Shown here in pieces: positions 6,370-22,354 of a stretch of 35,132 nucleotides of DNA (position 1 is its first letter; each line of letters begins with the position of its first letter). Under the pieces are notes generated by a model. It was not told the DNA's origin, did not search any database, and worked only from the letters and a program-made list of their open reading frames with translations. The position numbers and the translations under genes are program-made. The DNA is from Candidatus Euphemobacter frigidus (lineage in GTDB: Bacteria; Auribacterota; Erginobacteria; Erginobacterales; Erginobacteraceae), in NCBI GenBank assembly GCA_030765805.1, contig JAVCDH010000090.1:1-35132 (forward strand), in the 5' to 3' direction.

Positions 6370-7668
6370 TCAGTATTCCGCTCCGCTATCACCTCCTTTT
6401 TCAATCTTGTTTCTTCTCTCTTCAACTGCCGGGCCGGTGATCTCCAACCGGACCACCCGGCGATCGGTTGCCTGGGTGATCGTAAAGAGATGATCGCCAT
6501 AGTTGATCTTCTCTCCGGCAGACGGGATCTTGCCCAGCAGATCGATTAAAAAACCGGCGATCGTCTCCTCCTCTTTGTCTTCCGGGAGGTCAAGGTTCAA
6601 AATATCGTTCAGTTCATCCAGTCTCATCCGCCCGGAGACCTCCGCCGCGTTTCCTTTCATCCTGAACAGTGAAACCTCATCCAAATCATACTCGTCACGG
6701 ATCTCCCCCACGATCTCCTCGATGATGTTCTCCAGGGTCGCGATCCCCGCTACTCCACCATACTCATCAACCACAATCGCCATATTTACATCATTGTTAC
6801 GTAACTCTTCCAGAAGTTCATCCAGGGGCTTGCTCTCGGGAACAATATATGGCTCCCGGATCAGGGTAGCGATATTATGGTTGCCCGGAGTCATCAACAG
6901 GTCGGTGACCTGGACGGTGCCGATGATCTTATCCACCCGTTCCCGATAGATAGGGATCCTGGTATGCCCGCTCTCGCTGATTATCCTCCGGATATTATCC
7001 ACGGTTGAATCCTCGGGCGCGACGGTAACGTCGATCAGAGGCAACATAATTTCAGAGACTTCGGTCTCGCCAAAGTCGAAGACCCGGGCAATCATCTTCT
7101 CTTCATCTTCCGTCAGGACCCCTTGTTTCCTCCCTTCTTCCATCAGCAGGCGGATATCATCCACCGAGGTAAAGAGCTTGCTCTTCGCCGGGGATATTCC
7201 GAGAAGCCCCAGGAAGCGCCGGGAGAGCCAGGAGACAACCTGGACCAGGGGATAGAAAAGGTAATAGAACACCTGGAGGGGGAAGCTCAAGAGAAGGCTG
7301 ACCCGGGTTGCGCGGGGGCGGACAAGATTCTTGGGAATAATCTCGGCAAAGATCAGAATCAACGGCAGCATAATGACGGCGGCCAGGAATGCCCCCCGAT
7401 CTTCGAGCTGAAAACGATAGGAGAGAAGATAGGACGCTATGGTCGCACCGAGGACCAAGAAGAGGTTGACCCCCACAAGGGTGGTGGAGAGAAATTTTTC
7501 CGGGGCTTCCAGCAAGGCCTGGATCACCTGGGCCCGGCGACTCCCGGAGTCGGCCAGGTGACGAACGCGAAGCCGATTGGCGGAGACAAGTGCCATCTCC
7601 GAAGCACAGAAGAACGCCTGTAAAAGCAGACACCCGACAATAATGATAAGACAGACTCCGATAGTCAT
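6370..7668 (-). CDS. HlyC/CorC family membrane protein (DUF21-CBS-CorC_HlyC), second of pair
   Basis: Inner-membrane protein of the CorC/MpfA/CNNM type, associated with Mg2+ or other cation efflux and stress tolerance. The 432 residues begin with a DUF21 transmembrane domain (about 1-180; FFCASEMALVSANRLRVRHL is the signature near 19-38, and IFAEIIPKNL sits at the third helix). A tandem CBS pair follows (about 195-325, with TEVSEIMLPL, GHTRIPIYRE and VVDEYGGVAGIATLENIIEEIVGEI) and a CorC_HlyC transporter-associated domain ends it (about 340-415). Its ATG overlaps the stop of the preceding homologue by 4 bp (ATGA type), which implies translational coupling. The two are paralogues and could form a heteromer. 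The exact transported ion is not known. Confidence 0.9.
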   Translation of the reverse strand: MTIGVCLIIIVGCLLLQAFFCASEMALVSANRLRVRHLADSGSRRAQVIQALLEAPEKFLSTTLVGVNLFLVLGATIASYLLSYRFQLEDRGAFLAAVIMLPLILIFAEIIPKNLVRPRATRVSLLLSFPLQVFYYLFYPLVQVVSWLSRRFLGLLGISPAKSKLFTSVDDIRLLMEEGRKQGVLTEDEEKMIARVFDFGETEVSEIMLPLIDVTVAPEDSTVDNIRRIISESGHTRIPIYRERVDKIIGTVQVTDLLMTPGNHNIATLIREPYIVPESKPLDELLEELRNNDVNMAIVVDEYGGVAGIATLENIIEEIVGEIRDEYDLDEVSLFRMKGNAAEVSGRMRLDELNDILNLDLPEDKEEETIAGFLIDLLGKIPSAGEKINYGDHLFTITQATDRRVVRLEITGPAVEERRNKIEKGGDSGAEY

Positions 7669-8960
7669 GATCTATCCAGGGGACGAATCCCGGCCTCCTT
7701 CCCGATTCCCTTCCGGCTTATCAAAACCTGTCCGATCCGGCGCCCCTTTAAGTTAACCACCTTAAACCAGAGGCTCCCTTCCTGATAGGTTTCACCGGGC
7801 TGGGGAATATGTCCGAGCTTTTCACAGAGATACCCTCCCAGGGTCACATTCTTATCTCCGGTCAAGTCAAGATCAAACTCATCATTTACATAATCCAGTT
7901 CCATCCGGCCCCGGAGCTGAATGGTATCCTCATTCAATATCTCGAAGTCCGGAGGGGCTTCTCCCCGTTCTCTGATCTCGCCCACTATCTCCTCGATCAG
8001 GTCATCCAGGGTAATCAATCCTGAGATTCCCCCATACTCATCCACCACCAGGGCGATGTGGATCTTTCTCGCCAGAAACTCCTTGAGCAATCGGGAGGCC
8101 TTCATGATCTCGGGGACAAAGTATGGTTTGCGGAGACAATCCCCCAGGGCAATCCGTTCCACCCTCCGGGCCAGGGTCATGACCAGATCTTTGGGATAAA
8201 AAATGCCGATCACGTTCTCCACCTTGCCGGAATAGATCGGGATCCGGGAATATTCCTTTTCCTTGATCACGGCGGCTATCTCTTCCAGGGGCGTATCGAC
8301 CTCAAATGAAACAATCTCATTGCGAGGGGTCATCAACTGCCGAATACTTTTATCCCCAAGATTGAATATCTCCGTGATCATTTCTTTTTCCTCCCCGTTC
8401 AGGGTCCCCTCCCGGGATCCCAGGTGGAGAGCGGTCGTTAATTCTTCCCTGGTCAGTGGTGTATCCGGAGAAGGTTTCTTCTTCTCGAAGAGGGAGATAA
8501 CCCGGTCGCTGGTAAAATGCACCACGGTTCTGATCGGCGCCACCACTTTTTCCAAAATGGAGATCGCCGGCGCCACAGCCAGGGAAAAGCTCTCGGCCCG
8601 GTTGATGGCCAGTATCTTCGGGGCCACTTCGCCCAGAATCAGGATGAGAAAGGTCATCACGATAGTGGAGAAAACCCAGGCCAGGGAACTAAGCGGTCCG
8701 GAAGAGAAGATACCGGCGGAGGCACGTTCGGCGATAGTGGAAGAGAGTATATTGACCAGCATGTTCCCCACCACGATCGAGACCAGAAGGCGACGGGGGT
8801 TGCCGAGCAAACGGGAGATAATAAGCCCGCGCTCCGGCTTGATGTGCTTCAACTTCTCAACCGCCAAATGATTGAGAGAGAAGAGTGCCGTCTCCGATCC
8901 GGAGAAGAAGGCGGAAAATCCGAGCAAAATCACCAGAAATAATAAGAGCATTACTATCAT
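7665..8960 (-). CDS. HlyC/CorC family membrane protein (DUF21-CBS-CorC_HlyC), first of pair
   Basis: Paralogue of the downstream gene with the same order of parts: DUF21 membrane domain (signature FFSGSETALFSLNHLAVEKL close to the N-terminus, LILGEVAPKILA further in), a CBS pair (IRQLMTPRNE, YSRIPIYSGK, VVDEYGGISGLITLDDLIEEIVGEI) and a C-terminal CorC_HlyC domain. I place the start at the ATG at 8960 (MIVMLLLFLV, 431 residues) because the frame upstream encodes 85 non-conserved, non-hydrophobic residues, and the DUF21 domain begins with this first helix. A second ATG at 8951 is possible. No clear Shine-Dalgarno sequence is seen. The gene diverges from the J-domain gene; the about 105-bp gap must hold both promoters. 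Ion specificity is unknown. Confidence 0.9.
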   Translation of the reverse strand: MIVMLLLFLVILLGFSAFFSGSETALFSLNHLAVEKLKHIKPERGLIISRLLGNPRRLLVSIVVGNMLVNILSSTIAERASAGIFSSGPLSSLAWVFSTIVMTFLILILGEVAPKILAINRAESFSLAVAPAISILEKVVAPIRTVVHFTSDRVISLFEKKKPSPDTPLTREELTTALHLGSREGTLNGEEKEMITEIFNLGDKSIRQLMTPRNEIVSFEVDTPLEEIAAVIKEKEYSRIPIYSGKVENVIGIFYPKDLVMTLARRVERIALGDCLRKPYFVPEIMKASRLLKEFLARKIHIALVVDEYGGISGLITLDDLIEEIVGEIRERGEAPPDFEILNEDTIQLRGRMELDYVNDEFDLDLTGDKNVTLGGYLCEKLGHIPQPGETYQEGSLWFKVVNLKGRRIGQVLISRKGIGKEAGIRPLDRS

Positions 8961-9017
8961 TGTTAGAGATTTAAATATATCATATCCATGGTTTGAGGGA
9001 AAGAAAATTTCCGGAGT

Positions 9018-9046
9018 TTTACTTGCTCCCAATTTTATGGTATTAT
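9018..9046 (+). promoter_or_regulatory. Candidate promoter of the J-domain gene
   Basis: TTTACT (9018-9023) and TATTAT (9041-9046) are 17 bp apart, matching 4/6 and 5/6 of the sigma70 consensus. Transcription from here would start near 9053. That would leave out the in-frame ATG at 9045 and supports the ATG at 9066 as the true start. Confidence 0.35.
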
Positions 9047-9065
9047 GCCGGCGGTATTTTGTTTC

Positions 9066-9872
9066 ATGAGAGCATTTAAAAATTACTACCGGATTCTGAA
9101 TGTCGGTCCTTCCGCATCCCGTAAGAGTATCCGGGCTTCTTTCCGGAGGCTGGCCAAGAAATATCACCCCGACACCAGCCACCTCGATCCGGAAACCGCG
9201 ACCAGCCGGATGCATATTCTGATAGAGGCGTACCGTATCTTAATGGATGTGGACAAACGGACCGCTTATGATCTCCGTTTTAAACCCCAAAGAAGTGATC
9301 GAGGCCGTTCCTACCGGGATTCTCTAGAAAAACGAGGAGACGATCCTTACGCCCGGGCGCTCCTGATCTTCTACGATCTCCTTAATGGAGCTGCCAACCG
9401 GGCGATATTTAACTATAATCAGTTAATGAAACGCGATGGTGATTCCATCGATCTGCTCAGTCTGCTCGGCTTTGCCGACTATCTGGACTGCACTTTTCTC
9501 CTGGCCGAGGTCTATCAGCGGCAATGCCGGTATGAAGAGGCGGCCCGGTATTATGAGGATGCATTCCAAGAAGACCTGAAATGGAACTACTTCCGTCATT
9601 TCCGTTCTGAATTGCAGCAGCGGATCAGAGATATCTATTGTCGGAAATTAGCCCGACAAGCCAAGCCCCGCGTCGCCATCGGCTACTACCGAAAGCTGTT
9701 GAGGGAATACAGCTTCCCCAAAAAAGAGCGAGCCTTCTTTCATAAGAAAATCGCTGAATGCTACTATAATCTCAATGATCTGAAGAGAGCCCGATCGCAC
9801 TTCGCAAAAGCCCTCCGGCTCCAGCCCAATCTTTCGGGGACACAGAAGATTCGTAAGAACCTTGATATTTAA
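9066..9872 (+). CDS. J-domain protein with C-terminal TPR-like helices
   Basis: Probable DnaK co-chaperone of non-canonical (type III) form. Residues 7-71 of 268 form a J domain: YYRILNVGPSASRKSIRASF, then the HPD tripeptide at 34-36 in KKYHPDTS, then AYRILMDVDKRTAYD. There is no Gly/Phe linker, zinc finger or DnaJ C-terminal domain. Instead residues about 95-260 form helical repeats, including a clear TPR-like stretch (ECYYNLNDLKRARSHFAKALRLQP at the end, and VYQRQCRYEEAARYYEDAF at about 149-167). The start at 9066 is chosen over 9045 because homology begins there and a candidate -10 box overlaps 9045. A 29-bp gap and a good Shine-Dalgarno sequence link it to the MazG-like gene. The client is unknown; the TPR part probably selects it. 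Confidence 0.85.
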   Translation: MRAFKNYYRILNVGPSASRKSIRASFRRLAKKYHPDTSHLDPETATSRMHILIEAYRILMDVDKRTAYDLRFKPQRSDRGRSYRDSLEKRGDDPYARALLIFYDLLNGAANRAIFNYNQLMKRDGDSIDLLSLLGFADYLDCTFLLAEVYQRQCRYEEAARYYEDAFQEDLKWNYFRHFRSELQQRIRDIYCRKLARQAKPRVAIGYYRKLLREYSFPKKERAFFHKKIAECYYNLNDLKRARSHFAKALRLQPNLSGTQKIRKNLDI

Positions 9873-13320: not shown

Positions 13321-14712
13321 TCATTTTTTCCGGCAATCAAAGAAGATAATTCTCTCTCTGGGTTCCTCAAAGACAGCCACTGGCTCATACCGGGAGAGGA
13401 AAGCCTGAATCCGGGGGTCAAGCCAGAAGCGGCTCTCCTGGATAATAAAATACTTCAAGCGGGGTTGAGCCGCTAATCTGTCGAACATCTCCTCGATCCG
13501 CGCCAGACCGGCCTTAAACCGCATATGATTTGTATCCACCATGTCCAGAGCGATATCACGACCGGTGAGGAGGGCCAGGAGGGGAACGGTCGTAACATGG
13601 CCGAAGAGGAGATCGTCTTCAGTGGAGTTGCGGAGGATAAAATCCCGGCACTGCTCCCGGGTCGTGAATCCGGTCCCCTTCTCATGCACCAGATAACGGC
13701 GGAGGTCATCCCCGCTGAAGACCGCGAGGATAAGTATCGCGACGATCAGGCCGGACACTCGTGACCAACGCGCCGGGAATTGCCGGATTTTCGCGGCCAA
13801 CCCGACCGCTCCGATCCAGGAGAGAAACGGCAGGGGAAGCATAAAATACTGGGTAAAGAGCGGATTGAGCGCCGCCAGGAAGATTAGGTAAACCAACCCA
13901 GCCCCCAGGACGGCGGTCCGCTTCGCGGACCAGGGAACCCAGAAATAGAGAAACGGAAGAAAGAATACGAGGATATTCCTCCGGATCACCCTGATGTAGA
14001 TATCAGCCACCAGCTCGGTACCCCGGGGCTTGAGAAAGTGGTAGACAAAGACCGGGGTGAGGTATCTATCTCCAAATAAGATGAGGAAGATGCCGTTTAC
14101 CCCTCCGAAGATCACCAGGAAGCCACCTAAAAACCTCGCTGTGGTCCTCAGCCGATCCCGGCGAAGAAGATAATACCCGAACGGCACCACTCCCCAGGGA
14201 AGGGCGTAGAGGCCCGTCACGGAGGCTAGTCCCCAGAGAATTCCGCAGGGAAGCGGGCGGTCTTCCAGAAAATAATAGAGGCTGAGGAGGAGGAAGAACG
14301 CGGTCAGATTGAGCCCGAAGGGATGGGTGGTGATCTTGAGCAGTTCATAGTTAAAAAGAAATATGATCAGAAAGAAGATCCCGGTCAGGCCGTTCCTCCT
14401 CTTCCAGAACCAGAGGTAGATAACAATGGCGCCAGCCAGAACCGGCAGGATGGCCGTCAACTTGAGCGCTACCAGGTGAAATCCAAAGATGAGATAGACT
14501 GAAGAGAGAAGGAGCAACTGGAGGGGCGGATGGGCAAAGAAAAAATCCCGGTAGAAGAGCTTGCCCTCGCTCATCAGTCGGGCCATATAGAAGTAGGTGT
14601 TCTCATCCCCCCCTACCGAATAGTGGAACCCGAAGGTCTTGGCCCAGATAAATCCCCCGCCGATCAGAATCAGGAGCGGCCATTTGATATATGCGAACCG
14701 GAATTTCATCAT
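13321..14712 (-). CDS. GT39/PMT-like membrane glycosyltransferase (GT-C fold)
   Basis: Integral membrane protein of 463 residues with about ten to eleven hydrophobic helices. It resembles the dolichyl/undecaprenyl-phosphate-sugar transferases of the ArnT/PMT group. The first extracytoplasmic loop carries the acidic pair expected of GT-C enzymes, D36-E37 in VGGDENTYFYMARLMSEGK, followed by YRDFFFAHPPL (54-64), which is typical of this group. The C-terminal about 110 residues are soluble (DDLLFGHVTTVPLLALLTGR... to FFDCRKK) and probably periplasmic. No Shine-Dalgarno sequence precedes the double ATG at 14712/14709. The donor is probably a polyprenyl-phosphate sugar; the acceptor (lipid A, protein or glycan) is unknown. 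It follows a terminator, so it has its own promoter or relies on read-through. Confidence 0.8.
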   Translation of the reverse strand: MMKFRFAYIKWPLLILIGGGFIWAKTFGFHYSVGGDENTYFYMARLMSEGKLFYRDFFFAHPPLQLLLLSSVYLIFGFHLVALKLTAILPVLAGAIVIYLWFWKRRNGLTGIFFLIIFLFNYELLKITTHPFGLNLTAFFLLLSLYYFLEDRPLPCGILWGLASVTGLYALPWGVVPFGYYLLRRDRLRTTARFLGGFLVIFGGVNGIFLILFGDRYLTPVFVYHFLKPRGTELVADIYIRVIRRNILVFFLPFLYFWVPWSAKRTAVLGAGLVYLIFLAALNPLFTQYFMLPLPFLSWIGAVGLAAKIRQFPARWSRVSGLIVAILILAVFSGDDLRRYLVHEKGTGFTTREQCRDFILRNSTEDDLLFGHVTTVPLLALLTGRDIALDMVDTNHMRFKAGLARIEEMFDRLAAQPRLKYFIIQESRFWLDPRIQAFLSRYEPVAVFEEPRERIIFFDCRKK

Positions 14713-14837: not shown

Positions 14838-16160
14838 TTAAAAGCTGGCCAGAACCTGCGCCCGGATTTCGACAACATCATCCGGATCTTCATCGTTGGT
14901 GGGAAGATCATAGGCTTTACCGGGTTTGAACCAGGCTCCCACAAGCTGGAGACTCACGTCTTCAGTGTAATCATACTCCAGGATGGCATCAAGCTCCATT
15001 CCCAGTGCCTTGTCCTCCCCGTTGGTCTTCGCGCTCACACCGCCGTTGTCCATGTCTTCATTGCCCATGGGCATCGCCCGGTCTTTTGACTGAGTGTAGT
15101 AATAAAAATCAATGATAAAAGCGACGGCTTCAGATGGGAGAACACTCAGCTGGGCATTGAGGATGCCGATGTTGGATAACTTCGGGCTGTAGGCGTAGCC
15201 GTAATAGTTGTAATTAAAGAGCGGATCAAAAGTCTTCTGATCGGGGTTGGCGGCGTCTTCGCCCTTATCGCCGGAGCCATAGGTGTAAGAGAGGGCGATC
15301 GCCGGCTGCCAGGCAACATCGAAGACATAGACCGCGCCCAGGTCGAATCCGAAGGCCCTCATGCTCTCATCCTCAGCCATTGTGGTGGACTGGTACTTTC
15401 CTAACTCGTAGGCGAACTCACCCCAGATATCGAAGGCCTCTACCGGGGAAGCATCGAACCTGATCCCAACCGCGATCGGGGCCTGTTTCGCGTCTCCGTA
15501 ATCTTCTCCAAACTGATCCCGCTTGCCGAAGACATATCCCTCCAGCGTCCAATAGTCGGCCTGATAGTTCAAGTTAAGACCGAAGAGATCCTCATCATCG
15601 GCCGCCTTGACGATACCACCACCCATAGCTGCCCGGTCCGACTCAACCAGACGGGAGTAGAAGAGGTCGATCGTCCAAGGGAAGAAGTCCAGGATATTTC
15701 TCCAGCAGTCAAACTTATACTCCCATTCCCGGCTGCTGATCAGAAAGCCCCGGCCGTAATTAAGATACTGGCGACCGAGCTTGGCAGTCCAGCGGCTGTA
15801 AACTATCTCGCTGAGCTGAATATAAGCCTCGGCGACATTAACATCCCATTCATTCCTCTCCTTAGTATACCCGGTGGCATCTTGCTTCACCACCTGCTGT
15901 CCCCAGACACCGTCGGCTTCCACCGTGGATACCACCCAGATCTGGTCGGTCAAATCAGCCTCGGCGGAGACACGAGTTCTCTGGCGGAAGAAGAAGTCGT
16001 CCTGATCATCCTCCTGGTCCACACTATAGAGATTCTTAGTATAATACATCCGGGTCCGGATATCCCCACCCAGGCGCACATTCTGTACCTCAGCCTTCAG
16101 CGTGGCCGAGAAAGCCGCAAGCATCCCGAGAACCAGTAATGCCGTTATTAATCTTCTCAT
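14838..16160 (-). CDS. Porin-like outer-membrane beta-barrel (alginate-export/phosphate-porin type)
   Basis: Predicted outer-membrane channel of 440 residues. The Sec signal peptide (MRRLITALLVLGMLAAFSAT) ends near LKA-E24. The mature chain is a run of amphipathic strands with aromatic girdles: NVRLGGDIRTRMYYTKN, FFFRQRTRVSAEADLTDQIW, WTAKLGRQYLNYGRGFLIS. Acidic loops follow, and the chain ends in ...QVLASF with the terminal Phe of BAM substrates. The GRQYLNYGRGFLIS-type segment resembles alginate-export-family and related porins, but the solute is unknown. A strong AAGGAGGTC Shine-Dalgarno sequence, a good upstream promoter and a terminator make it a compact, probably highly expressed single-gene unit. 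Confidence 0.8.
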   Translation of the reverse strand: MRRLITALLVLGMLAAFSATLKAEVQNVRLGGDIRTRMYYTKNLYSVDQEDDQDDFFFRQRTRVSAEADLTDQIWVVSTVEADGVWGQQVVKQDATGYTKERNEWDVNVAEAYIQLSEIVYSRWTAKLGRQYLNYGRGFLISSREWEYKFDCWRNILDFFPWTIDLFYSRLVESDRAAMGGGIVKAADDEDLFGLNLNYQADYWTLEGYVFGKRDQFGEDYGDAKQAPIAVGIRFDASPVEAFDIWGEFAYELGKYQSTTMAEDESMRAFGFDLGAVYVFDVAWQPAIALSYTYGSGDKGEDAANPDQKTFDPLFNYNYYGYAYSPKLSNIGILNAQLSVLPSEAVAFIIDFYYYTQSKDRAMPMGNEDMDNGGVSAKTNGEDKALGMELDAILEYDYTEDVSLQLVGAWFKPGKAYDLPTNDEDPDDVVEIRAQVLASF

Positions 16161-16257: not shown

Positions 16258-16905
16258 TTAATTTTTGGCTTTTAAAAACAGCAAATTGACCATTTCTTCC
16301 CGGGCTAGACCGGCATAGAGGCTTTGGGGAAAGCGTTCGATAACTTCGCGATAGCTCTCGATCGCCTCCACGGCCTGACCCTGCCGGGCCTGGCACCGTC
16401 CCTTATTAATACCGGCTTCCGGAATGAGCGAAGACGCGGGATAGATCTCTCCCACCCGGACATATTCGCCCACCGCTTCTTCCAGCTTTCCCCGGCTCTC
16501 CAAACAATAAGCCTTCCCCATCTGCGCGAAAGACGCCAGAGGATGTCCGGGATACCGTTTCAGAAATAATTTATATGCTTCCCCGGCCGATTCGAACTCG
16601 GCATCATCATACAGTATGGCGGCGAACTGAATCAGGGCCAGAGGGGCGGCGGGGGATTCCGGATACTCTTCATAGATACCGCTCAAGGCCTCCTTCGAAC
16701 GAGCCTGGCTGAGTTCAGTCGCCGCCTGTTTGGTCATGCTGGAAGAATGATAAGAGGTAGCCGCAATGATAACGACGATGATGACCAGAACCACCCCCAG
16801 GGTAAAAAAGATCCCCCGGTATCTCTGCATGAAGCCGGCGGTGGTGGCGACAGCCTCGACCAGGCCATCGTGCTTCATATCTTTAACTGTTATCTTCTTT
16901 GCCAT
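16258..16905 (-). CDS. Membrane-anchored TPR protein (YfgM/YbgF-like)
   Basis: A 215-residue protein with one N-terminal membrane helix (about 31-50, FFTLGVVLVIIVVIIAATSY) after a short basic cytoplasmic tail. A periplasmic domain of four to five TPR units follows, for example FESAGEAYKLFLKRYPGHPLA, LEEAVGEYVRVGEIYPASSL and AVEAIESYREVIERFPQSLYA. This layout matches YfgM-type ancillary proteins of the Sec translocon and related scaffold proteins. No enzymatic motif is present. It precedes the porin on the same strand, but the porin has its own promoter. No Shine-Dalgarno sequence is visible. The role is probably scaffolding in envelope assembly; the partner is unknown. Confidence 0.8.
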   Translation of the reverse strand: MAKKITVKDMKHDGLVEAVATTAGFMQRYRGIFFTLGVVLVIIVVIIAATSYHSSSMTKQAATELSQARSKEALSGIYEEYPESPAAPLALIQFAAILYDDAEFESAGEAYKLFLKRYPGHPLASFAQMGKAYCLESRGKLEEAVGEYVRVGEIYPASSLIPEAGINKGRCQARQGQAVEAIESYREVIERFPQSLYAGLAREEMVNLLFLKAKN

Positions 16906-17137: not shown

Positions 17138-20100
17138 TTATTTTTTTATTGGGGCCACCTGATAGACCATATAAGCCTCATTCACGGAGAGGTCACGCTC
17201 ATAATGAAGAAGACGAAAATGTTTCAGGTTCCGGAGGTTGGGAAGATCGAGAAGCCGGTAGAGTGTGCTCTCCTTGAGCTGTGTTATATTGTTGATGCCC
17301 ATCTGCTGGGGCTGGAAGATTATGTCCGGCGAGAAACTGTACTGAAACTGGCCGGTCTGCGTATTGTAGCGGATGAGCTTGAAGTACTTGGAGGAGATAA
17401 TAATATAATTCAGACCTCGGGCCGCCAGGGCACGGGCCGCGGTCTCCTCCGACTTCCAGTAGAGCTGGGGAAACTGAAAATCGATATTATCCGGGGAGAG
17501 TTCCGAATCGAGACCGGATATCGCTTCGGCCATATATCCGTCACTCCAGGGGACAAAGATTCGCCCACCGGCCGGCGCGTGATCATTCAGCCATTTATAG
17601 ATCCGATACTCTCCTTCGGTGCTCTTCGCGGTCTGATTCATGGAAGGGATAATCGTGGCAAAGAGCCAGCAAACCACCGCCACACCCCAGAGATGATTCC
17701 TGATCTCCCCGTTCTTCCGGGACCGGATCAGAAGAAAGATCAGAACCCCGAAGAAGGGGGGGGCGATCAGATAGAGATTAGCCCAGAACTTTCCGGCGCC
17801 CAGAAAGAGGAAAAGGAGACCCAGTACAGGCAGGAGGCAAAAGGCGCCCTTCTCGAGCATAGAGGAGCTTTGCTTTCTGGCTTTCCTGTCTTTCAAAGGC
17901 CTGGTCAAGGCCAGGAGGATCATCAGGAATCCCGGAACAAGAAGGCAGACCTGGACCGACCAATAATTCCGAATGGTTTTTATATACAAGCTAAGCCGGG
18001 GGAGGATCTTGTTAATCACCTCCACCTGCCGGGCCGGCTCAAGCGTCCTGATCCCATCAAGGAGTTTAAGATTGTCCGGCTGCCCCAGTTCCTTGACCTG
18101 GAAGATCAGACCGCCAAAGACCGCGCCTATCAGCATCCAGAGGGCGGTGAGGGAGAAGATCGCCCAGATCCACTTCGGTTTTTTCCCGTCCCTAATCCAG
18201 AGCTTCCCGAGATAGATAAATAAACCTGTTACAACCAGTGAAAAGAACATAAAGAGATAAGCGAAACCGGGAGCGGACCGGAGGAGCCCTCCGGGGATAC
18301 CGGGCAGGTCGAAGATGCCGAGGCTGTCTCTCAGGGACGGCAACGGCAGGAAGATAAGAACGGCCCCAATCCCGATGAGGCTCGCGGCCACGGTCATCAG
18401 GCTGAGGATCGAGCGCCGGTCCTCTTTCGGCCATTGGATGGAATAATAGATGAAGAGCGCCGCGACCGGGAAGAAGACGGCGTATTCCGTCGAGTACTTG
18501 CCTCCGAAGAGGCCGATGATGAAGCACATCCAGGCCGCCAGGATCCAGCTGTAGGCGGAACGCCAGTTGACAAATGCCAACGCCCCCATCAGGGCAAAGC
18601 CGAAAGTCAGGGGTCGGGTCCCCCGGTCGGCCGTCCGGGAGGCCAGAAAAGCCACCATCAGCAACGCCAATCCCAGCATATCTTTCTTCTTGAGAGCCAG
18701 ATAGAGACCGATCGGAAGGAAGAAGAGGAGAAAGTTGAACCGGAGCCAGTAATCGCCCAGAGAACTGGCCAGAAGATCGCCGGAACCGGCCTTGATCTGG
18801 CTCAGGACATTGATTCCCCTGTTTCCCAACGCCAGATTGAAAGTCTTCTCCATCAATACCGGCATGACTTCCAGGTAGAGCAGAACCAGCAGGCCCACAG
18901 TCATTACCAGAAAACAGACCACCGACAGATATTTAAAGCCCTTCCTTATGAAAAACAAGTGCCAGAACAGAAAGAAGATCAAGCCGGCCGCCGCGGCGAT
19001 AAGGATGAACTGAGAACTGAAACCACTGATCTTCAGATCGTCAGCGCCGGAAAGAATCAAGACCGGGTTTGTTCCCCATACCACCTGACCTCGGGCGCTG
19101 ACAAGCTTTCCCGTGAAAAACGCAGCGGCGTTATAAGGAAACTTTGCCAGATCGGCTTTCTGGATTACCAGGCTTAGAGGAGGATCAGGCTCCCCCTTGA
19201 ACTTAAGGAGCAGATCGCCGGCCGGCGAGGTCAGCCGGGTATTCTTGATTATCCCTCTCACCGTTGCCGGTTTTCTTATATATTCGGCCCGCCAGGTCAC
19301 CGAACCGGTTGTATCCGCCAGACTCTGATAGATAAAGAACAGCAGCGGAAGAGCCGCGACTGTTATCAGCGCCGCCCCCCACCGGTACAACTCGCGGGTG
19401 GAGATGAACCGGACCAGTTGCCATATAATAAAAGTATATAAGACGAAAATAACCGTGAGATAAATTAACCGGAAGGGATATCGGACAACCTGCAGATCTT
19501 CAAGATTGTCAATCAGCAGGACCGGGTCGGGGGTATAGTCGATCTTCCCGTAAGCAGTTACCGTCTTACCCTTGAAGAAATTAGAAGGATCCGGAGTGAT
19601 TCGGGACGCCACTTGAGAGGATATCTTGATGGAGATGGCATCCGGATCATCTTTATCAAAATACAATGTGATTTCCCCGGTCGAAAAAGATTGATCAGCC
19701 CCGGTGATCTTTCCGCTGACCGAGAATCTCTGCCCGGGAGGTTTAGAGTGGCTGCCCAGGTAGTCGGGCACGTATCTCCAGTAGATAGATTTACTTACAT
19801 AATAAAGTTCTTTGTACCCCAGCGATACCAGTGGAACTGCCGCCAGCAGTATAATTACCAGCACAGAGTATCTTTTAACCGGTCTGGAGCTAAGAAAAGC
19901 TCGGATGCCCTGCCAGAGCAGGAAGATAATAATAGTTCCCCCTCCAACCATTATCGTCGGGCCGACATGTCTTCCCAGGAAAAGAGAGAACAGGCAGAGG
20001 AAACCATAAAAAAGCCGGCTCCATCCTTGCCGCTTAAAGACCATCAGAACTCCATAGAGGGAAATAATCAGATAGGGGTACGCGAAGATATCATGGGTCA

Positions 20101-20521
20101 CGGTACCGGCGCTGTTGAACATCGGGAGAACCATTGAGCCATAGATCAGCCCGGCCAGAAAGCCCGTCTTTTTGTTGTGAAGTTCCGAGACGAAGAGACA
20201 GAAGAGAGCGGCGTTGAGAGATGAACTGAGGGAAGAGGTCAGGTAAGTTCCATAAAGGAGAGCCGGCCCGCTCAGGAACGCTCCCAGGACCTTCAGTATC
20301 CACCAGCTGGGATCCCAGACGGAGTAGAGGTCGAAGGTTCCCTTGGCCACGCCGTAGTAAAACCAGAGTTCGATCCCGCTGACCGTGTGCCATCCCCAGC
20401 GGAGAAAGAATATCAGGGTAACGACCAGACGTTCGGAGAGGGCAAAGAGAAACACATAAAGAATAAGTCTCCAGAGAGGGCAACCCTCGATCCTCTCCCA
20501 GAATGTCGTTTCGCCGTTCAT
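17138..20521 (-). CDS. Large STT3/AglB-like membrane glycosyltransferase with two inserted OB-like domains
   Basis: An 1127-residue polytopic protein that looks like a GT-C oligosaccharyltransferase relative. Roughly twenty hydrophobic helices run from residue 18 to about 960. A soluble C-terminal domain follows (about 965-1127) with YKWLNDHAPAGGRIFVPWSDGYM; the WSDGYM at 992-997 sits where STT3 and AglB carry WWDYG. Possible catalytic acids are E51 (GIELWFYYG) in the first loop and D144 (THDIFAYP) in the second. Unusually, two extracytoplasmic beta domains interrupt the helices, at about 263-346 and 416-498. They are duplicates: FFKGKTVTAYGKI...PVLLI and FFTGKLVSARGQV...PVLIL align directly. 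The length exceeds AglB (about 850-970), mainly because of these inserts. The start has no Shine-Dalgarno sequence and lies just after a tandem repeat. Function inferred: transfer of a lipid-linked glycan outside the membrane. Confidence 0.72.
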   Translation of the reverse strand: MNGETTFWERIEGCPLWRLILYVFLFALSERLVVTLIFFLRWGWHTVSGIELWFYYGVAKGTFDLYSVWDPSWWILKVLGAFLSGPALLYGTYLTSSLSSSLNAALFCLFVSELHNKKTGFLAGLIYGSMVLPMFNSAGTVTHDIFAYPYLIISLYGVLMVFKRQGWSRLFYGFLCLFSLFLGRHVGPTIMVGGGTIIIFLLWQGIRAFLSSRPVKRYSVLVIILLAAVPLVSLGYKELYYVSKSIYWRYVPDYLGSHSKPPGQRFSVSGKITGADQSFSTGEITLYFDKDDPDAISIKISSQVASRITPDPSNFFKGKTVTAYGKIDYTPDPVLLIDNLEDLQVVRYPFRLIYLTVIFVLYTFIIWQLVRFISTRELYRWGAALITVAALPLLFFIYQSLADTTGSVTWRAEYIRKPATVRGIIKNTRLTSPAGDLLLKFKGEPDPPLSLVIQKADLAKFPYNAAAFFTGKLVSARGQVVWGTNPVLILSGADDLKISGFSSQFILIAAAAGLIFFLFWHLFFIRKGFKYLSVVCFLVMTVGLLVLLYLEVMPVLMEKTFNLALGNRGINVLSQIKAGSGDLLASSLGDYWLRFNFLLFFLPIGLYLALKKKDMLGLALLMVAFLASRTADRGTRPLTFGFALMGALAFVNWRSAYSWILAAWMCFIIGLFGGKYSTEYAVFFPVAALFIYYSIQWPKEDRRSILSLMTVAASLIGIGAVLIFLPLPSLRDSLGIFDLPGIPGGLLRSAPGFAYLFMFFSLVVTGLFIYLGKLWIRDGKKPKWIWAIFSLTALWMLIGAVFGGLIFQVKELGQPDNLKLLDGIRTLEPARQVEVINKILPRLSLYIKTIRNYWSVQVCLLVPGFLMILLALTRPLKDRKARKQSSSMLEKGAFCLLPVLGLLFLFLGAGKFWANLYLIAPPFFGVLIFLLIRSRKNGEIRNHLWGVAVVCWLFATIIPSMNQTAKSTEGEYRIYKWLNDHAPAGGRIFVPWSDGYMAEAISGLDSELSPDNIDFQFPQLYWKSEETAARALAARGLNYIIISSKYFKLIRYNTQTGQFQYSFSPDIIFQPQQMGINNITQLKESTLYRLLDLPNLRNLKHFRLLHYERDLSVNEAYMVYQVAPIKK

Positions 20522-20608: not shown

Positions 20609-22354
20609 TTATAAACCCGGGTCCAACCGTCTTAGAATCGCGCGGGCCTTGTCCGCCCGTTCTCCTTCCGGGCGAAGTTCGATAAAAGCCCGCAGGTTCT
20701 CTTTCGCGGCTTTGCTATTCCCCTCCCGGTAGTCAAGAATTCCCAGGGCATACCGGGCCGGGCCGTAATTCTCCTTGAGTTCAATCGCCTTCCGGAAGGA
20801 TCGGCGGGCCTGGTCCGGTCGGCCAAGCCGGTTACAGGCCCATCCCTTCCTGGTGAGCAGCCGGGGCATCCGCCAGGGGTTATAATTTTCTTCTTCCAAT
20901 ACCCCGTACTCCTCCACCGCCTTCTCATATCTATGGAGAAAATATAACGATTCGGCCAGCAGAAAACGCGCCTCAAGGTCATCCGAATTGACGCGGAGAA
21001 GTCCTTCTAGAATCAGGGCCGCCGAGGCATATTTTCTCTCTTCGAACTTCTCCCGGGCCTCTTCCAGAGTGGTGAGTTTCTTCACCCAGGCACAGAAATC
21101 GGGGGCGGACTCCGCCAGGGAAACAACCGGGACCAGCGGCACGGAGAGCTTCCGCAGAGCCCATCCCGGGGGGGAAGCCATAATCTCCCCCCGGGCTCTC
21201 CGGACCGGGAGAAACTCCCGGATCAGGTGAAGCGGGAGGTCGATTACGGCGCTGAAGTCCGGGAGAGAGCGCCGGGGTATCCCCACCAATTTGCCGATCG
21301 CTTCGCGGACCCGCGGTCTCCCCTCCAGCCACTCTCCGAGCGCGGGGACCTCCCGGGCGGCCTCGGCCGGATCCAGGGTCGGGGGGATCAAAGATATAAT
21401 CTCCGGCAACCGATCATCCTTGATCTTCCAAACTCCGGTGACATCCCGGAGGGCCTGACGGACGTCTATAATCACCGGCCTACTACTGAAGACTGCTCCA
21501 TCCTCCGGGCGAAAGGCTTCGGAGGACTTAACCATCTGTATCCCGTCCAGATCCACCCGACATTGCCGGGCGATCTCCATCGTTATATCGTAATACTCCG
21601 GCGGGAACCCCAGTACCCGCATCTCTTCTTCGCTTTTAAGATAATAATTGCGGACACCAAGCTCAAAGTCCGTCGGGTAGCCAAATCGAGTCTTGATCAG
21701 GATATCATGGAACCGCCAGTCCCGGGCCAGCCGATAGTGGGAGTCGTTGGTAACCACCGGCGTCACCCCGAATCGTTTCGAGAGGGCGATCAGCCCTTCG
21801 TTCGCTTTCTCCTCGTCGGTGATCCCGTGCCGTCCCAGTTCGGGATAAAAATCGCGGCCGAAAATATCATAGTAGCGCCGGAACTCTTTCTCCGCAGCCT
21901 CCATCCCGCCGGTGATATATTTCTGAGGGAGCGATCCCCAGAAACATCCGCTCAGCGCGATCAGGCCATCGTGAAACTCCTCCAGGAGCTTCCAATCCAC
22001 CAATCCACGGGTCTCACCGAAGTTGTTCTCCAGCCAGCTGCGATTGTTCAGCCGGACCAGGTTACGGAATCCCTCGTTGTCCCGGGCCAGCAGTATCAGG
22101 TGGTTCCGATAAGAATCGTTCGTCTCGATACTTTTCCGGGCATCGTCAACAAAGTAGACCTCGCAACCGAGGACCGGGTGGAGACCGACCCGGCGGCAGG
22201 ACCAGTAAAAAGGATAACAGTAATCAAGCACCCCGTGATCGGTGATGGCGACCGCCTCCTGTCCCATCTCTTTGATGTATGAGAGGTCCCGGTCAGGGTC
22301 CAGGAGGCTGTCCGAGTACGAACCGAAAAAATGACAGTGGAGGTGGGCGAACAT
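20609..22354 (-). CDS. DnaE-derived PHP phosphoesterase with degenerate polymerase remnant and TPR tail
   Basis: A 581-residue protein related to the N-terminus of bacterial DNA polymerase III alpha. Residues 1-245 are a DnaE-type PHP domain with an apparently complete metal site: HLHCH (4-8), TDH (38-40), GCEVYF with E65, H85 in NHLILLA, C137 in LIALSGC, H176 in GRHG, and ND-SH at 203-206. Residues about 295-415 still resemble the DnaE polymerase core (ALRDVTGVW...LIPPT, LVGIPRRS, LIREFLPVRRARGE). The palm, with its GRGSAAGS loop and PDxDxDF aspartates, is absent, so it cannot be a polymerase. Residues about 425-575 are TPR repeats (KYASAALILEGLLRVNSDDLEARFLLAESL and following). It may be a nuclease or phosphoesterase with a scaffold. 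It lies 26 bp after rnhC and shares its upstream repeat with the next gene. Confidence 0.85.
   Translation of the reverse strand: MFAHLHCHFFGSYSDSLLDPDRDLSYIKEMGQEAVAITDHGVLDYCYPFYWSCRRVGLHPVLGCEVYFVDDARKSIETNDSYRNHLILLARDNEGFRNLVRLNNRSWLENNFGETRGLVDWKLLEEFHDGLIALSGCFWGSLPQKYITGGMEAAEKEFRRYYDIFGRDFYPELGRHGITDEEKANEGLIALSKRFGVTPVVTNDSHYRLARDWRFHDILIKTRFGYPTDFELGVRNYYLKSEEEMRVLGFPPEYYDITMEIARQCRVDLDGIQMVKSSEAFRPEDGAVFSSRPVIIDVRQALRDVTGVWKIKDDRLPEIISLIPPTLDPAEAAREVPALGEWLEGRPRVREAIGKLVGIPRRSLPDFSAVIDLPLHLIREFLPVRRARGEIMASPPGWALRKLSVPLVPVVSLAESAPDFCAWVKKLTTLEEAREKFEERKYASAALILEGLLRVNSDDLEARFLLAESLYFLHRYEKAVEEYGVLEEENYNPWRMPRLLTRKGWACNRLGRPDQARRSFRKAIELKENYGPARYALGILDYREGNSKAAKENLRAFIELRPEGERADKARAILRRLDPGL

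Follow-up and report, generated by a model that had tools for sequence, protein, structure and literature searches.

Layout of the P0001 gene and its insert

The window analyzed here is a stretch of 35,132 nucleotides from Candidatus Euphemobacter frigidus (phylum Auribacterota), which constitutes contig 16 of a single metagenome-assembled genome (MAG; 2.26 Mb, 116 contigs, 94.7% complete, 1.1% contaminated). Its subject is a minus-strand gene whose product, P0001, is an STT3-like glycosyltransferase C (GT-C) protein interrupted by two homologous OB domains, each flanked by its own pair of transmembrane (TM) helices. The open reading frame (ORF) that a preliminary description of this DNA had placed at 17138 to 20521 is real: it starts with ATG on the minus strand and encodes 1,127 amino acids (aa) with 0 internal stops. 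The C-terminal stretch singled out in that description, WLNDHAPAGGRIFVPWSDGYM, lies at residues 977 to 997. The parts of the protein are as follows, in protein order.

17138..20521, minus: coding sequence of P0001, STT3-like GT-C protein with OB inserts, 1127 aa (ORF, orthologs and paralogs)
19874..20521, minus: N-terminal GT-C half, residues 1-216, with TM1, external loop (EL) 1 carrying E51, and EL2 carrying H143-D144 (alignment, hydropathy, model)
18929..19873, minus: insert, residues 217-531, consisting of TM-OB1-TM, a short cytoplasmic loop, and TM-OB2-TM (alignment, hydropathy)
19814..19870, minus: insert helix 1, residues 218-236 (hydropathy)
19472..19756, minus: OB1 domain, residues 256-350 (homology to OB2)
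19412..19468, minus: insert helix 2, residues 352-370 (hydropathy)
19319..19375, minus: insert helix 3, residues 383-401, homologous to helix 1 (hydropathy, shuffles)
19016..19306, minus: OB2 domain, residues 406-502, predicted OB fold (homology, model, structure comparison)
18953..19009, minus: insert helix 4, residues 505-523 (hydropathy)
17630..18928, minus: second membrane part, residues 532-964, with an EL5-type loop (D582), R633/R636, and extra helices (alignment, hydropathy)
17153..17629, minus: C-terminal globular domain of STT3/AglB type, residues 965-1123 (profile and model comparison)

P0001 was compared with a set of 44 Auribacterota genomes, its own included. Full orthologs occur in four of the others, three from the same family (G006, G007, and G008) and one from the same order (G009), with sizes of 846, 814, 814, and 716 aa (for the first, the count starts at an internal Met within an ORF of 913 aa). 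The same four genomes hold a set of paralogs of 592 to 616 aa that are ∼30% identical; a search of the P0001 genome retrieved no copy of this paralog. The family profile matches 6/44 genomes, the sixth (G024) weakly (E = 1.6e-4), while G019 to G023 match P0001 through the OB domain only. The extra helices within residues 532 to 964 are common to P0001 and its orthologs, whereas the paralogs lack them.

Residues ∼217 to 531 are unique to P0001. In all orthologs (4/4) and paralogs (4/4), the insert is missing, and the cytoplasmic loop after residue 216 continues directly into the helix at residue 532. The beta domains thus interrupt the membrane part, as had been proposed, and the statement that no such inserts were known agrees with their absence from every ortholog and paralog found. 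The two units (residues 207 to 382 and 371 to 531) are 28% identical over 162 aa (E = 2e-16 by local BLASTP in a tiny search space), and unit 1 used as a query against the whole genome retrieved unit 2 at E = 1.6e-9. OB1 and OB2 align with a score of 89, whereas 2,000 shuffles averaged 25 and reached at most 53 (Z 14). The homology includes the first flanking helix (Z 6.6); the second flanking helices of the two units have no detectable homology (Z 1.0). The idea that the duplication also took in the native helix after the insert was discarded (Z 1.5 and 1.2).

An AlphaFold model of OB2, built from four sequences, has a mean predicted local distance difference test (pLDDT) score of 81.8 and contains a five-strand OB barrel; OB1 is assigned to this fold through homology. 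The best structural match to the OB2 model is the OB domain of AsnRS (Z 9.0, root mean square deviation [rmsd] 3.0, 88 residues), followed by RPA, PriB, MCM-N, and PolC (Foldseek and a second alignment). Thus, the duplicated beta domains of the preliminary description (about 263 to 346 and 416 to 498) are confirmed as homologs, where a lack of relationship between them would have spoken against its proposal. Lys and Arg residues are frequent in the short loops flanking the insert helices (four in residues 207 to 217, three in 371 to 382, and three in 524 to 531). Based on hydropathy and the positive charge of these short loops, both OB loops are predicted to be noncytoplasmic. Because the number of insert helices is even, the topology of the remaining protein would be unchanged.

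The insert, known from one MAG only, was most likely gained in the lineage of its own genome, because neither the outgroup G009 nor any of the three family members carries it. Its codon usage is low (0.56) but within the span covered by 19 genes of the window (0.45 to 0.88); it was therefore not used as a sign of foreign origin.

Membrane core, C-terminal domain, and candidate catalytic residues

The relationship of P0001 to STT3 emerges from profile and structure comparisons. The three best PDB matches to a profile of nine relatives were 3vu0 (E = 0.0056), 3vgp (0.049), and 2lgz (0.06), all of which are C-terminal domains of STT3/AglB. Foldseek with the full P0001 model gave STT3 or AglB in 7/7 matches at E ≤ 1e-3, and in a second structural comparison of 771 chains, the ten best were STT3/PglB (Z 20.8 to 21.6 over 450 to 473 residues). 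Residues 965 to 1123 alone superimpose on the AfAglB-S2 domain with Z 15.4 (rmsd 2.8, 141 residues). ArnT, AftD, and AftA match the model at about Z 15 to 16; the structural relatives named here are among the matches listed. The GT-C helix pattern noted earlier is thereby recovered, albeit in a model of low confidence whose membrane part is about equally close to PMT, and the predicted fold has the GT-C core whose absence would have told against the original proposal.

The designation STT3/AglB-like stands for fold and ancestry (profile, Foldseek, and Z scores) but not for strict membership. The search with an STT3 hidden Markov model that the preliminary description had recommended was negative: the Pfam STT3 model (PF02516) does not match P0001, and in the same genome it reaches only contigs C31 and C54, below the cutoff, and not contig 16. 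Across the phylum, PF02516 exceeds the cutoff in 12/44 genomes, and among the matches listed, none is at P0001 or its orthologs. Because P0001 has no Pfam STT3 match, a nonconserved WWDYG motif, and only generic lipid-linked-glycan genes in its genome, we use the term STT3-like only; the evidence supports P0001 as STT3-like in fold and ancestry, not as a demonstrated oligosaccharyltransferase. Searches with P0001 as a single sequence retrieved one chance match from the PDB (E 1.2) and nothing in a first contig scan of the genome, and an Rfam search gave no match. We note that three genomes of another family (G040 to G042; loci L045, L047, and L048) encode STT3 proteins of 812 to 838 aa (open frames) with WWDYG or WWDFG intact.

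Six residues are invariant in 9/9 family members, P0001 included: E51, H143, D144, D582, R633, and R636. The positions of interest are listed below.

20369..20371, minus: E51, candidate first catalytic acid (D56 of PglB), by comparison with PMC7226087
20090..20095, minus: H143-D144, candidate metal ligands at the place of the second DXD (invariance)
18776..18778, minus: D582, candidate for the EL5 Glu (spacing to P603)
18614..18625, minus: R633 and R636, candidate Arg residues binding the lipid-linked pyrophosphate (invariance)
17534..17551, minus: PWSDGY, residues 991-996, replacing WWDYGY (profile, alignment)

D582 precedes P603 (FLPIG) by 21 residues, ungapped, which is the distance between E351 and P372 (FPVG) of STT3A. 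R636 follows P603 by 33 residues, a spacing that we take to be shared by R405 of STT3A. PMC7226087 describes D56 and E319 of PglB as residues that hold the acceptor Asn, R147, D154, and D156 as contributors to metal binding, and R375 (R404 in yeast) as the ligand of the pyrophosphate. E51 lies in the expected EL1 loop and is Glu where D56 of PglB is Asp; conversely, the EL5 position is Asp (D582) where E319 of PglB and E351 of STT3A are Glu.

The alteration of WWDYG noticed in the preliminary description is genuine (PWSDG in P0001). The counterpart of WWDYGY is PWSDGY or PWSNGF in the orthologs and AWNQGY/F in the paralogs (L057 to L060). W992 and G995 are kept, while the first Trp and the Asp of WWDYG are gone. 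In PMC3703281, the Ser/Thr pocket is described as formed by WWD. Since two of the three WWD residues are lost, the sequence argues against the standard sequon but not against glycan transfer, and ordinary N-X-S/T sequon recognition by P0001 is doubtful.

Related OB domains and neighboring genes

A profile of eight OB domains matches 12/44 genomes (23 matches; E 1e-46 to 1e-4). Searched against the PDB, this profile retrieved unrelated proteins (best E 0.18), and against NCBIfam it retrieved nothing meaningful. Judging from the N termini of those matches read among the 23, the OB proteins outside P0001 are exported. Their OB domains accompany a ComEA-type helix-hairpin-helix (HhH) domain with a zinc-ribbon-like stretch, a PLD domain (L068), or an acid phosphatase. 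The acid phosphatase genes (n = 3) combine an HAD IIIB domain with a C-terminal OB domain (L081:700-1794, L072:691-1779, and L080:721-1779), and one of them belongs to the P0001 genome (contig 7). No recurrent GT-C gene was recognized by eye among the neighbors of the f12 OB genes, the ORFs of which were not searched against Pfam; there is thus no indication of a general association between the OB family and this enzyme.

In G009, which represents the sister family, two tandem OB genes (L056:7189-7923 and 6378-7343, both minus; frame coordinates) separate the PHP/TPR gene from the ortholog without insert and diverge from the latter with ∼90 bases between starts. Each of the two exported proteins encoded at L056:6378-7923 (minus) carries a zinc-ribbon-like CxxC pair and an OB domain. 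At the corresponding place in G006, G007, and G008, no OB domain was detected (tblastn, E ≤ 1e-4). As a rough estimate, given two OB loci in a genome of some thousands of genes, they would adjoin this gene by chance with a probability well under 1%. We regard the adjacency as a lead toward a functional or mechanistic connection between OB genes and this locus.

Descent of the inserts from the G009 genes was considered, and the OB tree gave no answer, with 9/12 inner branches open. Of the 16 rows built for it, three were invalid (G017_1, G017_2, and G018_C80; wrong strand); G018_C80 was dropped and the other two were kept. The P0001 OB rows sit on very long branches in this tree. In pairwise comparisons, the insert OB domains score Z 10 to 20 against f12 OB domains and Z 10 to 11 against OBa of G009. 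The inserts are thus as close or closer to the f12 domains, and direct descent from G009 is unsupported.

The genes flanking P0001 are conserved in its orthologs.

20609..22354, minus: PHP domain plus TPR, conserved upstream neighbor (Pfam, synteny)
16258..16905, minus: TPR protein (YbgF/BamD-like), conserved downstream neighbor (Pfam/NCBIfam, synteny)
14838..16160, minus: Alginate_exp outer-membrane barrel, conserved downstream neighbor (Pfam, synteny)

In 4/4 ortholog loci, the upstream side contains DeoC, RNase HIII, and PHP/TPR genes and the downstream side contains the TPR and Alginate_exp genes; SppA is present in 3/4. The PHP domain of the upstream neighbor resembles that of DNA polymerase III alpha (NCBIfam E = 6e-57, N-terminal 270 residues) and is fused to TPR repeats without the remainder of the polymerase. 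Beyond the barrel gene is a second GT-C-like protein (13321-14712, minus; 463 aa) that resembles PMT_2 weakly (E = 0.003, below the cutoff); this gene also follows the TPR and barrel genes in L053 (partly) and L054, the ortholog contigs that reach far enough. The paralogs occupy other surroundings: in the two loci tested with Pfam (L060 and L058), the gene has PAC2 on one side and, on the other, FMN_bind-cyclophilin genes and then a matrixin-like protease. Elsewhere in the window, a tandem pair of adjoining CNNM/CBS/CorC_HlyC transporters is encoded at 6370-9215 (minus).

Proposed function and comparison with known systems

We tentatively favor, at somewhat below an even chance, a role for P0001 as an inner-membrane STT3-like GT-C transferase with a polyprenyl-(pyro)phosphate donor and a periplasmic acceptor other than N-X-S/T, docked by the OB pair. 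A polyprenyl-linked glycan would reach the GT-C active site from the membrane, be taken from the donor using E51, H143/D144, D582, and R636, and be passed to a periplasmic acceptor that differs from the usual sequon; an unusual acceptor is proposed because the WWD pocket is lost. The C-terminal domain may hold this acceptor, joined in the P0001 lineage by the OB pair. Insertion of two homologous TM-OB-TM hairpins at one cytoplasmic loop would leave both barrels facing the periplasm, where they could act as a built-in docking module, so that a single chain would cover a task left elsewhere to a distinct adaptor subunit or, in PMT, to the MIR domain. The genome does hold lipid-linked oligosaccharide genes, for which the preliminary description had proposed a search, but these donor-side genes are generic (PF02397, n = 2; PF00953, n = 1; PF01943, n = 4).

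Several findings weigh against this proposal. P0001 matches no family in Pfam or NCBIfam at E ≤ 1, and its profile showed negligible similarity to three STT3 proteins of Auribacterota (Prob 0.4, E 0.15), although the only piece aligned was the C-terminal-domain region. The full model has a mean pLDDT of 52.6 and a predicted TM score (pTM) of 0.52, with the OB region below 50; assignment of the membrane core to GT-C is therefore provisional. PMT is nearly equal on the membrane part (Pmt4 9i5k_A, Z 20.5, residues 6 to 963 only), so that the C-terminal domain is what singles out STT3. The second DXD/DXE/DXH position, though invariant as H143-D144, offers one acid only. No glycan gene cluster surrounds the P0001 gene. 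Finally, the docking role of the OB pair is inferred from fold and location, and the structural matches are mainly nucleic-acid-binding OB folds.

In a different reading, the OB pair binds nucleic acid, the enzyme glycosylates extracytoplasmic nucleic acid or acts on acceptors bound to nucleic acid, and the fusion arose by absorption of a neighboring OB gene. It is suggested by the occurrence of this OB family on exported ComEA-type HhH (DNA uptake), PLD-type, and acid phosphatase proteins, and we consider it very improbable. The conserved TPR and barrel neighbors make a serious rival of another possibility, which we nonetheless judge unlikely: that the same GT-C core serves an outer-membrane-bound polysaccharide or glycolipid (compare ArnT and arabinosyltransferases), working with the TPR protein and the barrel while the OB domains hold the glycan. 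Both genes come after the transferase gene in 4/4 orthologs, with the second GT-C-like gene next in line here and, where covered, in the orthologs; the sequon-reading WWD is lost, and ArnT and AftD also match the model. Against it stand a C-terminal domain that resembles STT3/AglB specifically and the lack of any polymerase or export cluster nearby; in addition, Alginate_exp barrels may be general porins.

P0001 might also be a catalytically weakened or dead STT3-like protein with the OB insert as a drifting neutral passenger. The presence of the insert in 1/5 ortholog-bearing genomes, the very long branches of its OB domains in a tree with most inner branches open, codon usage near the bottom of the window range, and the changes to WWDYG and to one acid of the second DXD are consistent with such decay. 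Yet the candidate catalytic residues are invariant throughout the family, and the frame, OB fold, and even helix number have been kept while the units diverged to 28% identity, which leaves this explanation rather improbable. The same divergence, together with the preserved frame and membrane topology, intact synteny on both sides, and codon usage within the window range, argues against an assembly chimera or binning artifact; despite the single MAG of 116 contigs and the lack of a second genome with the insert, we give this explanation the least credence of all.

If the preferred transferase reading is correct and P0001 is active, an STT3-type core can acquire new periplasmic modules in the form of TM-domain-TM hairpins that are neutral for topology, and the sequon-reading WWD motif is dispensable. 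With its orthologs and paralogs in Erginobacterales, P0001 points to an undescribed bacterial oligosaccharyltransferase-like branch. Insert-less and OB-bearing orthologs within one synteny form a natural comparison in which the role of the module is directly testable. What appears new is the combination of STT3 likeness by fold and ancestry, a position outside strict STT3 by Pfam and WWDYG, and an insert detected in a single genome.

Homologs of STT3 have been described in bacteria, and PMC4973528 places them within the euryarchaeal clade. Like STT3/AglB/PglB (GT66, PF02516), P0001 has a predicted GT-C membrane core, the same type of C-terminal periplasmic domain, a candidate EL1 acid, a candidate acid at the EL5 Glu position, and a TM Arg. 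It differs in the lack of a PF02516 match, in PWSDG for WWDYG and H-D for the second DXD, in the two inserted TM-OB-TM hairpins, and in the extra helices before the C-terminal domain. A layout with two OB inserts was seen in no relative found here, and among open-license literature judged by titles, no fusion of an OB fold with an oligosaccharyltransferase was found. PMT (GT39) shares the GT-C membrane part (Z 19 to 20.5) and likewise has a beta domain on the luminal side, placed between two helices. In PMC7759382, the PMT MIR domain is located in luminal loop 4 (LL4), between TM helices TMH7 and TMH8, and binds mannose ligands. Among GT-C enzymes with a beta domain outside the cytoplasm, MIR offers the closest precedent. 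It is a lone beta-trefoil, whereas P0001 carries a pair of OB folds, with two dedicated helices for each, and an STT3-type C-terminal domain. The PMT Pfam models do not match P0001, and the modeled insert is an OB fold rather than a beta-trefoil. The exported Auribacterota proteins (HhH/ComEA-type with zinc ribbon, PLD, and acid phosphatase) share the same OB family. In contrast to P0001, with its two OB domains inside a polytopic enzyme, these proteins are soluble and mostly carry one.

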